Origin: Duganella sp. BuS-21
GTDB taxonomy: Bacteria; Pseudomonadota; Gammaproteobacteria; Burkholderiales; Burkholderiaceae_D
DNA: 64,000 bases
Assembly: GCA_041874725.1 (NCBI GenBank)
Contig: CP097466.1
Span: 1,798,001 to 1,862,000 of the forward strand
Direction: 5' to 3'
Shown here: positions 7,878 through 12,355 of the stretch, in pieces
Position numbering within the stretch: position 1 is the first letter of the stretch
How the letters are laid out: each line of letters begins with the position of its first letter
The notes under the pieces: model-generated
Databases searched by the model: none
What the model saw: the letters and a program-made list of their open reading frames with translations, nothing else
Told to the model about the DNA's origin: nothing
Program-made: the position numbers and the translations under genes

Positions 7878-10517
7878 TTAGAACTTGTAGGTTGCTTTCA
7901 CGTAGAAGGTGCGGCCCAGCGGGTCCGTGTAGCGTGGATCGTAGCCGCTCTGGAACGTGGTGCCCTGATTGGTGTACGGCGGCGCGGTGTCGAACAGGTT
8001 CTTGATGCCGGCCGTCAGCTCCGTGTTCTTGAAGCCCGTGTAGCCGCCCGACAGCGAGTACGTCGAGTACGCGCGCACCTTGTTGCGATAGGCGTCGTCG
8101 ACGTCGTTCTCATCCACATAACCGCTCAGGTATTTGTTCGAGAAGCTCGCGCTCCACACCCCTTTTTTCCAGTTGATGGTGGCGTTGTGCTTCCAGCGGA
8201 ACACCGGCGCATTGTCGCCGTACACGCCGACGTTTTCAACAAACGCTCCGCCCGTTTCGTTCTGGTACTTGTAGCTGTGTACCCAGGTGCCGTCGAACTG
8301 GAAGCTGAAGTCGCCGGCCGCGCTGCGCGGCAGTTTCCAGCGCAGGCTGGTGTCGATGCCTGAAGTCTTGACCTCACCCAGATTGTCCAACACCGCGTTC
8401 ACGTACTGCAGCGTTTTGCCGTCGGCCGAGTAGACGAAGTAGCTCTTGTACTTCTCGTAGTTGTCGAAGATGGTGGACTCGGCCACCGTGCCGATCGAGT
8501 CGCGGATCTTGATGTTGAAGTAGTCCAGCGAAATGCTGACTGCATTGCTCGGCTCGAACACTGCACCCAGCGCGAAGGTCTTGGATTTCTCCGGCTTCAG
8601 GTTGGCGTTGCCGCCGCTGCGGATATATTGCTGCTGGTTGCAGGCCACGTTCGGATTGGCGCCGGTGGCCGCCGCGCCGCCCGGGCACAGCACCGGATCG
8701 TCGTAGGCATTGCTGGTGAAGGTGGAGGTGGCCGGGCCGTGCAGGTCGTACAGCGTCGGCGCGCGGAAGCCGGTGTTGTAGGAAGTACGGAACATCAGCT
8801 GCTTGCTGGCTTCCCAGCGCAGGCCGAGCTTGGGATTGAAGCTGCCGCCGACGTCGTTGTAGTGGTCGTAGCGGGCCGCCGCCGACAGTTCCAGCGACTT
8901 GGTCAGCGGTACGCTCAGCTCGGAATACAGCGCGGCGATGTTGCGCTGGCCGGATTGGTCCTTGGCGTCGGCATAACCGGAGCTCGATGCCTGCGAGGCC
9001 AGCGCCGTGTTGATGTCGTAGATGGCTTTGTCGTGGCGGAACTCGCTGCCGATGGCGAAGCCGACGCCGCCCGCCGGCAGTTGATAAATCTCGCGGCTGA
9101 CCTTGCCGTCGACGCCGATGCTGGTCATCTTGGCGGCCAGGTATTCGCCGCGCAGCTGCGCCGCATCGATGTAGGCCAGGCCGGCCGCCGATTGCTCGCC
9201 GAACGGATTCAGCACGCCGCTCAGCACGCCCGCTTTCATCAGCGAGTCGTTGGTGTAGCCGCCGGCGAAGGCGCTGCTGGCCTTGCTGATGCCGTAGGTC
9301 AGACCGACGTTGTAGTCCCAGCCGGCCACCAGGCCTTCCGAGGCCAGCACCAGGCGGTCGGAGATCGAGGTGTCGTAGCCCTGGCGTTTGCCGGCGGCGA
9401 CGGTGCGCCAGTTGATGCTGAGGTTCTCACCGGTCAGGCCGGCCACGGACGGCACGCCGGCGCTGCCGCCCGGATAGTAGGGACTGGCCGAGGTCATGGT
9501 GATGCCGGTCAGCGGCGACGGCGCGATGGCGCTGGCGTTGGTCGAGCGGCTGTGCAGGTATTCCACCGTGGCGATATTGTCCGCGCTCAGCTTGAAGCTG
9601 GCCTTGCCGAGGAAGGATTCCTGCTGCGTCTTCGGAATGTCCTGGATGTAGGCGATGGTGTCGGTGCGGCAGGTGCCGTTGGCGGTGTTGCGGATCAGGC
9701 CTTTGCCGGCGCAACCACTGGCGTAGTAGGGGTTGCCGGTGATGCCGTTGGCCGAGTAGAAGTTGCCTGGCTGCGAGGTGCCGCTGCTGTTGTTGATGCC
9801 GCGATCGGCGCGCACGCTGGTGCTGGAAAAGTCGCGCTCCACCGCATCGAGCGCGGTCTGCTTGTGCAGGTCGATGACGCCGAACAGGTTCCAGCCGTCC
9901 TGGTCCAGGTCGCCGTAGCCGCCCGAGAGGTTGAGGCGCGATTCGCCGCCGGCGCCGCTGGCCTGCGGCTGGTAGCGCTCGATGCTGACCGTGCCGCCCT
10001 GTACCGAACGCTTGGTGATGAAGTTGATGACGCCGCCGATGGCGTCGGTGCCGTAGATGGCCGAGGCGCCGTCGCGCAGCACTTCCACGCGGTCCAGCGC
10101 CGATAGCGGGATGATGTTGAGGTCGACCGAGGAGCCGTTGAACGGATGGCTGGCCAGGCGGCGGCCGTTGAGCAAGACCAAGGTCTTGTTGCTGCCCAGG
10201 CCGCGCAGGTCGGCGGTGGCGATGCCGCCGGTGCCGGACCCGACCGACTGGCTGCTGCCGGTCGAACTCTGGTTCATCGACAGTGTGTTCATCACTTCGG
10301 CGGCCGTGGTCAGGCCCTGCTTGGCGAAGTCCGAGGCCTTGATGCTGGTGATCGGCAAGGCCGTTTCAGTGGCCAGGCGCTTGATGCTGGAACCGGTCAC
10401 TTCTACGCGCTGAATGGCGCCGTCGTCGGTTTGCGCCACGGCTGCCTGCATGCCAACGGCCAAGCCGCCGGCGAACATTACACGCAGAGTCCGGGTAAGA
10501 GCTCTTTCTATCATCAT
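7878..10517 (-). CDS. TonB-dependent receptor (paralog 1)
   Basis: 879 aa outer-membrane receptor. N-terminal signal peptide (MMIERALTRTLRVMFAGGLAVGMQAAVAQ), then QRVEVTGSSIKRL leading into the plug domain (KTLVLLNGRRLAS, LDRVEVLRDGASAIYGTDAIGGVINFITKR), a 22-strand-type barrel, the conserved ARYDHYNDVGGSFNPKLGLRW and GFRAPTLYDL segments, and a C-terminal strand ending YVKATYKF. TonB-dependent receptors import large substrates (siderophores, vitamins, oligosaccharides or peptides); the ligand cannot be read from sequence. The ATG at 10517 follows an AGGAG at 11-base spacing. It is shorter than the three other paralogs in the cluster and diverges from the aroG leader across about 310 bp. Confidence 0.95.
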   Translation of the reverse strand: MMIERALTRTLRVMFAGGLAVGMQAAVAQTDDGAIQRVEVTGSSIKRLATETALPITSIKASDFAKQGLTTAAEVMNTLSMNQSSTGSSQSVGSGTGGIATADLRGLGSNKTLVLLNGRRLASHPFNGSSVDLNIIPLSALDRVEVLRDGASAIYGTDAIGGVINFITKRSVQGGTVSIERYQPQASGAGGESRLNLSGGYGDLDQDGWNLFGVIDLHKQTALDAVERDFSSTSVRADRGINNSSGTSQPGNFYSANGITGNPYYASGCAGKGLIRNTANGTCRTDTIAYIQDIPKTQQESFLGKASFKLSADNIATVEYLHSRSTNASAIAPSPLTGITMTSASPYYPGGSAGVPSVAGLTGENLSINWRTVAAGKRQGYDTSISDRLVLASEGLVAGWDYNVGLTYGISKASSAFAGGYTNDSLMKAGVLSGVLNPFGEQSAAGLAYIDAAQLRGEYLAAKMTSIGVDGKVSREIYQLPAGGVGFAIGSEFRHDKAIYDINTALASQASSSGYADAKDQSGQRNIAALYSELSVPLTKSLELSAAARYDHYNDVGGSFNPKLGLRWEASKQLMFRTSYNTGFRAPTLYDLHGPATSTFTSNAYDDPVLCPGGAAATGANPNVACNQQQYIRSGGNANLKPEKSKTFALGAVFEPSNAVSISLDYFNIKIRDSIGTVAESTIFDNYEKYKSYFVYSADGKTLQYVNAVLDNLGEVKTSGIDTSLRWKLPRSAAGDFSFQFDGTWVHSYKYQNETGGAFVENVGVYGDNAPVFRWKHNATINWKKGVWSASFSNKYLSGYVDENDVDDAYRNKVRAYSTYSLSGGYTGFKNTELTAGIKNLFDTAPPYTNQGTTFQSGYDPRYTDPLGRTFYVKATYKF

Positions 10518-10795
10518 GGGTGTGTCACTCCTGATTTTGTTTTGTGGTTAGGGAAAACCATCAAAACATTCAGTGACTATCCGAACAATGACCGAAAGAT
10601 AATTGTGTGTATATCCAACAGTAGCAAATAAAAGCACCTGTAAAGACGGGCCTTTGCATAAAGCGAGCGCCGGGTCGCCGGACGGCATTCTGCGGTCGCG
10701 GCAGCTTTACATCTGGACACAATGGATAAGATGTAAAGACAATTGTGGAGGGTGTAAAGTTTTGTTGAGAGGCGGTCTGACCGAAAAAAAATTGC
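10518..10795. promoter_or_regulatory. Divergent intergenic region with repeated TGTAAA half-sites
   Basis: There is no gene in this stretch between the receptor and the aroG leader. It holds TGTAAAGAC twice (10639-10647, 10732-10740), a third TGTAAAG at 10753-10759, and one inverted copy CTTTACATC at 10705-10713, which pairs with GATGTAAAG at 10730-10738 as a 9-bp inverted repeat. The two right-hand direct copies are 21 bp apart, two helical turns. TGTAAA/TTTACA is the half-site pair of the TyrR box, but the classical 6-bp spacing is not met. Binding by a dimeric regulator is inference. Confidence 0.4.
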
Positions 10796-10825
10796 TTGCC
10801 AAGCCCGGAACTATGGCGTTATAGT
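10796..10825 (+). promoter_or_regulatory. Predicted sigma-70 promoter for aroG leader
   Basis: TTGCCA at 10796-10801 and TATAGT at 10820-10825 are separated by 18 bp. The start of transcription would fall at about 10832, which is the ATG of the leader ORF, so the leader might be translated from a leaderless transcript. The alternative is that an unseen promoter lies further upstream. Confidence 0.5.
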
Positions 10826-10831
10826 CAACGC

Positions 10832-10912
10832 ATGACCAAATTCTTCTTTACCGGCTGGTTTTACTTTAGCTTTCCAACCCCTAGGCGGTGGATGAGCGGC
10901 CGGTGCACGTAG
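10832..10912 (+). CDS. Aromatic-rich leader peptide of aroG (attenuator control ORF)
   Basis: A 26-codon ORF starts ATG at 10832 and stops TAG at 10910. It begins MTKFFFTGWFYFSFPTP and holds six Phe, two Trp and one Tyr, nine aromatics in all, seven of them within residues 4-14. Such composition is the hallmark of attenuation leaders (E. coli PheL, TrpL). It lies 94 bp before the DAHP synthase gene and about 35 bp before an intrinsic terminator. A seven-base stretch at 10883-10889 (AGGCGGT) inside the ORF can pair with the terminator's 5' arm. No Shine-Dalgarno is visible before the ATG. The role as a charged tRNA-Phe/Trp/Tyr sensor is inference from composition and layout. Confidence 0.75.
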   Translation: MTKFFFTGWFYFSFPTPRRWMSGRCT

Positions 10913-10941
10913 CAGCAGAAAACGAGTCCCAGCAAATTCCT

Positions 10942-10972
10942 AAAAAACCGCCTCCTGAGGCGGTTTTTTTTT
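10942..10972 (+). terminator. Intrinsic terminator / attenuator hairpin before aroG
   Basis: The stem ACCGCCT (10947-10953) pairs with AGGCGGT (10958-10964) across a CCTG loop, flanked by A6 and followed by T9. It lies between the leader ORF and aroG, and its 5' arm can alternatively pair with 10883-10889, giving mutually exclusive terminator and antiterminator folds. Confidence 0.85.
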
Positions 10973-11005
10973 ACCCGTAATTTTTTAGATCAACTGGAGA
11001 ACAGC

Positions 11006-12085
11006 ATGCCCCGTACCGATGATTTGCGCATCCGCGAGATGAAGGAACTGACGCCACCGTCCCACCTGATCCGTGAGTATGCGTGCAGCGACGCTGCGGA
11101 GCAGACTGCCGCCAACGCCCGCGTGGCGTTGCACCGCATCCTGCACGGCCAGGACGACCGCCTGATGGTAGTGATCGGCCCGTGCTCGATCCATGACACC
11201 AAGGCCGCCATGGAGTATGCACGCCGCCTGGCGCCGCTGCGCAAGGAGCTGGCCGGCGACCTGGAGATCGTGATGCGCGTGTACTTCGAAAAGCCGCGCA
11301 CCACGGTGGGCTGGAAGGGCCTGATCAACGATCCCTACATGGACAACAGCTTCCGCATCAACGACGGCCTGCGCATGGCGCGCGAGCTGCTGCGCGACAT
11401 CAACGAGCTGGGCCTGCCGGCCGGCACCGAGTTCCTCGACGTCATCAGCCCGCAGTACATCGCCGACCTGATCTCCTGGGGCGCGATCGGCGCCCGTACC
11501 ACCGAGTCGCAGGTGCACCGCGAGCTGGCTTCTGGCCTGTCGTGCCCGGTCGGCTTCAAGAACGGCACCGATGGCAATGTGCGCATTGCGGTCGACGCCA
11601 TCAAGGCCGCTTCGCAGCCGCACCATTTCCTGTCGGTGACCAAGGGCGGCCACTCGGCCATCGTCTCGACCAACGGCAACGAGGATTGCCACATCATCCT
11701 GCGCGGCGGCAAGGCGCCGAACTATGACGCCGCCAGCGTGGAAGAAGCCTGCAAGGCGATCGCCGCACAAGGCCTGGCGCCGCGCCTGATGATCGACGCT
11801 TCCCACGCCAACAGCTCGAAGAAACCGGAAAACCAGGTGCCGGTGTGCGCCGACATCGCCGGCCAGGTGGCCGGCGGCGACAGCCGCATCGTCGGCGTGA
11901 TGGTGGAATCGCATCTGGTGGCGGGCCGCCAGGATCTGGTGCCGGGCAAGGAACTGACCTACGGCCAGTCGGTCACCGACGGCTGCATTGACTGGGACAG
12001 CAGCATCCAGGTGCTGCAAGGCCTGGCCGCCGCCGTGCGCCAGCGCCGCTTGGCCACTCAGGCGCGAGAGGCTGCCGCAAAGTAA
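11006..12085 (+). CDS. aroG: 3-deoxy-7-phosphoheptulonate (DAHP) synthase, class I
   Basis: 359 aa, the usual length for class I (AroF/AroG/AroH) DAHP synthases. They condense phosphoenolpyruvate with erythrose 4-phosphate, the first committed step of the shikimate pathway. Visible motifs: metal-binding Cys60 in GPCSIHD, EKPRTTVGWKGL, GARTTESQVHRE, PVGFKNGTDG, VTKGGHSAIV, and DASHANSSKKP near the C-terminus. The start is ATG 11006 with TGGAGA about 6 bases upstream. The upstream leader and terminator imply control by aromatic aminoacyl-tRNA supply in addition to feedback inhibition; which amino acid inhibits this isozyme cannot be told. Monocistronic, with its own terminator. Confidence 0.96.
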   Translation: MPRTDDLRIREMKELTPPSHLIREYACSDAAEQTAANARVALHRILHGQDDRLMVVIGPCSIHDTKAAMEYARRLAPLRKELAGDLEIVMRVYFEKPRTTVGWKGLINDPYMDNSFRINDGLRMARELLRDINELGLPAGTEFLDVISPQYIADLISWGAIGARTTESQVHRELASGLSCPVGFKNGTDGNVRIAVDAIKAASQPHHFLSVTKGGHSAIVSTNGNEDCHIILRGGKAPNYDAASVEEACKAIAAQGLAPRLMIDASHANSSKKPENQVPVCADIAGQVAGGDSRIVGVMVESHLVAGRQDLVPGKELTYGQSVTDGCIDWDSSIQVLQGLAAAVRQRRLATQAREAAAK

Positions 12086-12107
12086 GCACTAACGAGAGCC
12101 TGCTGAA

Positions 12108-12141
12108 GGACCCCAATGTCGCGTTGGGGCCTTTTTTTTTG
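12108..12141 (+). terminator. Rho-independent terminator of aroG
   Basis: CCCCAA and TTGGGG form a stem around TGTCGCG (12111-12129), followed by CC and ten T residues. It lies 22 bp after the aroG stop. Confidence 0.9.
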
Positions 12142-12193
12142 CATCAGACTAGCATGGCTGTTGTAAGGACGCCAAAATTGTATGTGGTTCGAT

Positions 12194-12233
12194 TGACAGT
12201 TGATTCTCCGCCATGTTGTTATATAAAACATGG
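12194..12233 (+). promoter_or_regulatory. Promoter/operator region of TonB receptor 2
   Basis: A perfect TTGACA stands at 12194-12199. The best -10 candidates (TTATAT at 12219 or TATATA at 12220) are 19-20 bp away, a long spacing. Overlapping them is an inverted repeat with arms CCATGTT (12211-12217) and AACATGG (12227-12233). A similar GTTG-ATATAAAACA string recurs at 15637-15656 upstream of the receptor relic, so it may be a shared receptor control element. Confidence 0.45.
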
Positions 12234-12355
12234 CCGGTGTCGTTGAACACCTTCCTAGAGTAGTTCCCCACAAGTGAACCGAATTCCCGTCCGCAGCCTA
12301 CCCGGCTACGGTCGTTGGATAGTTGCATCCTAAAAAAATTACCCGGAGGTTAGTC

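Follow-up and report, generated by a model that had tools for sequence, protein, structure and literature searches.

The locus raises the question of why a short reading frame crowded with aromatic codons should lie directly upstream of aroG, and whether it governs transcription of that gene. The window (the whole 64 kb stretch of DNA that was analysed) was compared with related genomes, and the RNA between promoter and gene was modelled in the presence and absence of a ribosome. The region is very probably a ribosome-mediated transcription attenuator before aroG. In many Burkholderiales, entry into the shikimate pathway would then be controlled directly by charged tRNA-Phe and tRNA-Tyr, whereas in Escherichia coli aroF, aroG and aroH are controlled mainly by TyrR and TrpR.

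The aroG gene (11006–12085, plus strand) encodes a class I DAHP synthase of the AroG/AroF/AroH type with 359 residues, assigned by NCBIfam model NF006723 (AroG; 590.8 bits, cut-off 568), and GGAG is found ahead of it at 10996–10999 on the same strand. Among relatives with solved structures, the best carry the names DAHP synthetase and Phe-regulated or Phe-sensitive DAHP synthase, the E. coli enzyme. The putatively regulated gene, an AroG-type DAHP synthase by sequence, serves to make the amino acids encoded by the leader codons. Downstream of aroG, CCCCAA (12111–12116) and TTGGGG (12124–12129) followed by CC and nine T were seen by eye, and this region (12111–12140) is probably the terminator of aroG. 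The gene upstream of the leader (7878–10517) is on the minus strand and its product looks like a TonB-dependent receptor. With a divergent neighbour, the terminator described below cannot be required by any plus-strand gene immediately upstream.

The leader ORF was located at 10832–10912 on the plus strand from the ORF list and the sequence (26 codons, MTKFFFTGWFYFSFPTPRRWMSGRCT, stop codon TAG at 10910–10912). Its translation contains six Phe, two Trp and one Tyr residues, exactly as given in the first-pass annotation, which had been made from the DNA letters alone. Aromatic density was ranked over both strands of the 64 kb window among 793 ORFs of 14–40 codons, no two sharing a stop; in this set the leader was represented by the ORF ending at its stop codon, a longer form started by TTG. 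It was the densest aromatic cluster of the set and the only one with eight aromatics in 12 residues, the runner-up having six. The leader pattern occurs once in its own genome, and no second exact copy was found there. A promoter-like site, TTGCCA-18 nt-TATAGT, is present at 10796–10825 on the plus strand (10 of 12 positions matching), and TATAGT is also found upstream of the leader in relatives. In the window this −10 element ends 6 nt before the leader ATG, and the transcript is expected to start at or adjacent to the ATG.

Beyond the stop codon lies a 12 bp terminator hairpin, AAAAAACCGCCT-CCTG-AGGCGGTTTTTT, at 10942–10969, with nine T at 10964–10972. Its arms, both on the plus strand, were defined from sequence and conservation as segment D (5′ arm, AAAAAACCGCCT, 10942–10953) and segment E (3′ arm, AGGCGGTTTTTT, plus the nine T that it runs into, 10958–10972). 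Segment B (AGGCGGT, 10883–10889, plus strand), within the leader ORF, duplicates part of the terminator 3′ arm and is therefore complementary to the 5′ arm (ACCGCCT); as the putative 5′ arm of an antiterminator, it has a CCGCC partner in 98 of the 101 distinct sequences compared. The first-pass annotation had proposed just this alternative pairing of ACCGCCT with AGGCGGT; both sites were located, and their arms are kept in relatives. An extra copy of AGGCGGT at 10770–10776 precedes the promoter and is not expected to be transcribed with the leader.

Further pairings are possible within the same RNA. Alignment pairing counts gave segment A (ACCGGC, 10850–10855, leader codons 7–8) as the partner of segment C (GCCGGT, 10899–10904), both on the plus strand; segment C is inside the ORF here and 3′ of the stop codon in relatives with a close stop. 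Segment A was recognized in 91 of the 101 sequences, 34 of which lacked C by the first pattern used; with a slightly wider pattern both segments were recognized in 58 sequences. In these, 321 of 348 cells were paired, with T–A instead of G–C at pair 4 in 11 sequences and a break at pair 5 in 12 and at pair 4 in seven. At pair 4 the aroG tree shows no more than about two changes in segment C, and the test for independent pairs returned one to two pairs only, so that the A:C helix is suggestive, its covariation resting on few events. From the sequence and alignment, TCCA (10873–10876, plus strand) may be the 5′ side of a small inner hairpin with TGGA (10889–10892). TTCC (10937–10940, plus strand), which precedes an A-run and recurs in many aligned sequences, may give a second short antiterminator helix with GGA (10890–10892). 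A simple terminator scan of the window did not list the hairpin at 10942–10969, and the folding energy of the whole leader RNA did not stand out from that of shuffled sequences (z = −0.64, with 49 of 200 shuffles folding equally well or better). The case consequently rests on conservation and not on folding energy.

Conservation was assessed in a set of close relatives comprising 110 orthologous aroG loci: the best 80 of 590 relatives, 29 loci added from 29 of 35 relatives in the genus (some of them duplicating loci among the 80) and the window. A leader was accepted if it had an ATG start, 14–34 codons and at least four aromatics in 12 residues. By this rule a leader was found in 108 of the 110 loci, which yielded 101 distinct leader-to-gene sequences. 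Two loci did not pass: the sequence examined for L030 contains no leader, and in L064 (Candidatus Burkholderia humilis) a leader-like sequence, the terminator and the arm are visible and no ORF satisfies the rule. Typical leaders are of the form M..FFFTGYFYFSNSNPKAVE in the Massilia/Duganella type and MSAKFYFYFFWHLRPLADREG in the Burkholderia type. CCGCC in segment D with its copy in the leader was present in 98 of the 101 distinct sequences, as was CCGCC...GGCGG before the T-run; the remaining three (L058, L075 and L076) have a variant D arm. The alignment of relatives that had been suggested as a check on the first-pass annotation was thus carried out, and both the aromatic codons (in leaders at 108 of 110 loci) and the terminator and antiterminator arms (98 of 101 sequences) proved to be conserved.

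For the codon alignment, we used the 82 of 101 leaders with a Phe that precedes Ser or Cys and follows Tyr, Trp or Thr. This anchoring fixes position 0 as Phe and limits position −1 to Tyr, Trp or Thr, and position 0 was not taken as evidence. Aromatic residues were found in 79 of the 82 leaders at position −2 (Phe 78, Thr 2, Ala 1, Tyr 1), in 78 at position −6 (Phe 77, Ala 3, Tyr 1, His 1) and in 67 at position −3 (Tyr 44, His 14, Phe 12, Trp 11, Glu 1). The codons at position −1 were TAC in 67 leaders, TAT in nine and TGG in six; since a Tyr-to-Trp swap takes two base changes, it is the aromatic residue itself that is kept. Among the 101 distinct leaders none lacks Phe, two lack Tyr and 62 lack Trp. 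The leader rule demanded aromatics without specifying which, and these absences therefore support control by Phe and Tyr better than control by Trp. Leaders use TTT 357 times and TTC 121 times for Phe, compared with 97 and 524 times, respectively, in the 101 aroG genes and five and 72 times in three genes of the window; the preference for TTT may reflect a rarer codon that sharpens the response. The attenuator most likely senses charged tRNA-Phe and tRNA-Tyr and, less clearly, tRNA-Trp. The first-pass annotation, which invoked attenuation by charged tRNA-Phe and perhaps tRNA-Tyr and tRNA-Trp, is supported for attenuation and, through the conserved residues, for Phe and Tyr; for Trp, absent from those 62 leaders, its suggestion is less clear.

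Across the 101 sequences, RNA is conserved more than peptide in the second half of the leader. Segment B (GGCGGT) occurs in each of the three reading frames (for example ..AVE, ..RRW and ..GGG), with about six changes of frame on a quick aroG tree and four sequences in each of the two minority frames. The leader therefore appears to split into a coding half, with the aromatic codons, and a structural half, with the antiterminator arm, as attenuation requires. The stop codon is no more than 13 nt from B in 83 of the 101 distinct sequences and is displaced by at least 19 nt in the other 18, a state that accounts for about ten changes on the same tree. In the window the stop codon is 20 nt past B, and a ribosome terminating there would leave the antiterminator arm uncovered. 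The textbook masking step is weakened in the window by this distance, and a close stop was treated as usual in the family and not as defining it.

The switch was modelled with the 98 sequences that have CCGCC in D, folded to the end of D (i.e. with E not yet made). When folding was restricted to RNA beyond a stalled ribosome, B:D pairing had P > 0.5 in 94 of the 98 sequences for a stall at the last aromatic codon and in 81 for a stall at the first; without a ribosome it did so in only 19 of the 98. With the ribosome treated as a mask in the full leader, P exceeded 0.5 for at least one aromatic codon in all 98. In all 98 real sequences segment D had an upstream partner with P > 0.9, as against 14% of shuffled tails. 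A ribosome at the stop codon left B:D with P > 0.5 in none of the 80 close-stop leaders, which follows directly from the masking of B, and in 14 of the 18 displaced-stop leaders. With E included, D:E prevails over B:D at equilibrium (median P of 1.0); the exceptions are four of the 98 sequences for a first-codon stall (L067, L069, L072 and L080) and one for a last-codon stall (L074). As the terminator wins at equilibrium as soon as E is present, the switch must be kinetic. For the window, P(B:D) was 0.44 and 0.78 for stalls at the first and last aromatic codons (medians of relatives 0.95 and 1.0, respectively) and, in the masked model, 1.0 for stalls on Trp9 to Phe12. It was 0.41 with a ribosome at the stop codon, where B is left free, and 0.06 without a ribosome, when upstream RNA takes up B. 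In these models antiterminator pairing is predicted to be mutually exclusive with that of the terminator and to depend on ribosome position before E is transcribed.

The anatomy, the conservation and the constraint on the aromatic residues are observed and the alternative pairing is modelled; from them we infer the kinetics, the dependence on tRNA and the physiological effect as follows. Transcription would begin near the leader ATG and a ribosome would translate the leader. Were charged tRNA-Phe or tRNA-Tyr (perhaps also tRNA-Trp) scarce, the ribosome would stall in FFFTGWFYFSF, B (AGGCGGT) would pair with D (ACCGCCT) before E is made, the terminator would not form in time and aroG would be transcribed. 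With plentiful aromatic amino acids the ribosome would reach the end of the leader. There, in most relatives, it would mask B and allow D:E to form, whereas in the window, with its displaced stop, its release would let upstream RNA recapture B, again allowing D:E to form. In both cases D:E would stop transcription before aroG.

The start of the leader also varies between clades. In 71 of the 108 loci a TATAGT occurs no more than 70 nt ahead of the leader, the other 37 giving no measurable spacing. The distance from the −10 element to the ATG is 6–7 nt in nine of the 71 loci and 22–51 nt in 62; the former represent seven distinct sequences, all in the part of the genus to which the window belongs. 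Leaderless initiation is thus a probable clade-specific state that fits only the clade of the window, which is not the best example of the system. The earlier suggestion that the leader is translated leaderless fits this clade (6–7 nt) and does not fit the relatives with longer spacings (22–51 nt).

These two departures, a leaderless start and a slipped stop, leave some room for a variant of the attenuator in which regulation is relaxing in the clade of the window and aroG is largely read through regardless of amino acid supply; we regard this as possible, though rather unlikely. It would accord with the leaderless spacing, with the repeated displacement of the stop codon by at least 19 nt and with the persistence of B:D pairing at the stop in 14 of 18 displaced-stop leaders against none of 80. 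Against it, the aromatic block, B, D, E and the T-run are all intact in the window, and the fall in P(B:D) from 0.41 to 0.06 on removal of the ribosome means that release could still give termination. A tentative proposal of similar standing is that the attenuator of this clade has been rewired by leaderless initiation and by repeated indels shifting the stop past the antiterminator arm. Termination at high Phe would then no longer occur via masking by the ribosome but through rapid departure of the ribosome, after which upstream RNA would recapture the arm. If true, the clade would provide a natural experiment on which of the textbook steps attenuation cannot do without.

The trpL leader of Sinorhizobium meliloti is a Trp leader. 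In PMC7298713 it is described as an attenuator leader ORF at the 5′ end of its transcript, with reported activity in trans. The leader ORF in the clade of the window would likewise be at the very 5′ end, as expected from the probable leaderless start, and this likeness is what would favour an additional action in trans of the terminated leader RNA or peptide, as reported for peTrpL/rnTrpL of S. meliloti (PMC7298713). S. meliloti differs in being an alphaproteobacterium in which the target is trpE(G). We consider such an action improbable for the present leader; in different species three different reading frames encode the C-terminal half of the peptide, which speaks against a role for this half. 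Attenuation in cis is a far better account of the locus than a plain end-of-transcript or roadblock terminator with an aromatic ORF that is a chance frame. That reading, although helped by the unremarkable folding energy and by the absence of the hairpin from the simple scan, is very improbable given the divergent upstream gene, the retention of aromatics through swaps among Phe, Tyr and Trp codons and the top aromatic density among the 793 ORFs. The position of the terminator before an aromatic biosynthesis gene would also suit a T-box or metabolite riboswitch that needs no translation and itself binds uncharged tRNA or an aromatic compound, but this is the least probable reading and can scarcely be entertained, as no Rfam family reached its gathering score in 9800–12300 or in six relatives and conservation falls on codons and on an arm copying the terminator. 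Among the candidates tried against Rfam, a T-box leader was rejected (the T-box model was not among the four matches up to an E value of 1 in 9800–12300), as were the known leader families (the best, Leu_leader, scored 24.3 bits with a gathering score of 50, and six relatives had none at gathering).

The breadth of the attenuator was surveyed with a stricter threshold of at least six aromatics in 12 residues. In other families of the order 24 were sampled with one genome each, of which 20 matched and 19 were compared. A leader at this threshold was found upstream of an aroG-like gene in six of these 19 genomes, five of which also had a CCGCC/GGCGG terminator by scan, and was absent from 13. 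Three of the 19 (G042, G050 and G057) matched at only 49–54% identity and may carry another type of DAHP synthase. From the rest of the class 40 genomes matched, of which 19 were compared (20 loci), and 18 of the 19 were without a leader at the threshold. The single genome that reached it has a GTG start and no terminator was found after the ORF; in a further genome a Trp-rich ORF narrowly misses the threshold.

Attenuators of proteobacteria were reportedly the subject of comparative studies by Panina in 2001 and Vitreschak in 2004. Leader-peptide attenuation is already known, and pheA attenuation as well as TyrR/TrpR control of DAHP synthases is described for gammaproteobacteria in PMC5343134. 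The present leader shares with the pheA leader of E. coli and other gammaproteobacteria (mentioned in PMC5343134) a Phe-rich short ORF, an alternative antiterminator, an intrinsic terminator and an aromatic biosynthesis gene. The pheA leader controls the phenylalanine branch, whereas the leader described here precedes a DAHP synthase gene, has almost constant Tyr codons and belongs to a betaproteobacterial host. A candidate Phe-containing uORF adjoining a terminator upstream of aroF, uORFC-13-1, is described for Acholeplasma in PMC8632094, which also cites an earlier attenuation hypothesis for E. coli aroF. By description it is similar in having a candidate Phe uORF and a terminator before a DAHP synthase gene, and differs in being given there for Acholeplasma and unassigned environmental sequences only, with at least one Phe codon described (PMC8632094). 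Two candidate uORFs with Phe and Tyr codons at shikimate genes are given in PMC6429828 (legend to Fig. 6b) and resemble the present leader in these codons and in their association with shikimate genes. The genomes named there, some of five, include HIMB5, Arcobacter sp. L and T. lienii, and the word ‘Burkholderia’ is absent from the main text (PMC6429828); ‘aroG’ is likewise absent from the main texts of PMC2965389 and PMC3766115. No betaproteobacterial aroG leader was found in the open-access literature, judged mostly from titles and the openings of abstracts, and aroG as a target is unreported for this lineage as far as that literature was searched. The alignment is deep enough for a new RNA family. 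It also includes natural variants, differing in whether the stop is near or far and in whether a 5′ UTR is present, through which the contributions of the stop codon and of ribosome release could be tested directly.

Other aromatic genes of the same genome were also inspected. A second DAHP synthase copy (L002, G000:C1:5789328-5790335) is 52% identical, and no aromatic leader was found upstream of it by the rule of ATG start, 14–34 codons and at least four aromatics in 12; each of the 35 genus relatives likewise has two DAHP synthase matches. At the prephenate dehydratase gene no leader was seen on its strand within the locus examined. Upstream of trpE (locus L133) there is a short ORF, MSLTKKHTVNQTGSIEAWLWRRWQSWHH, with four Trp codons at approximately 1241–1327 on the reverse strand, followed by a hairpin and six T (seen by eye) just before the trpE start, and this is likely to be a trp leader attenuator.
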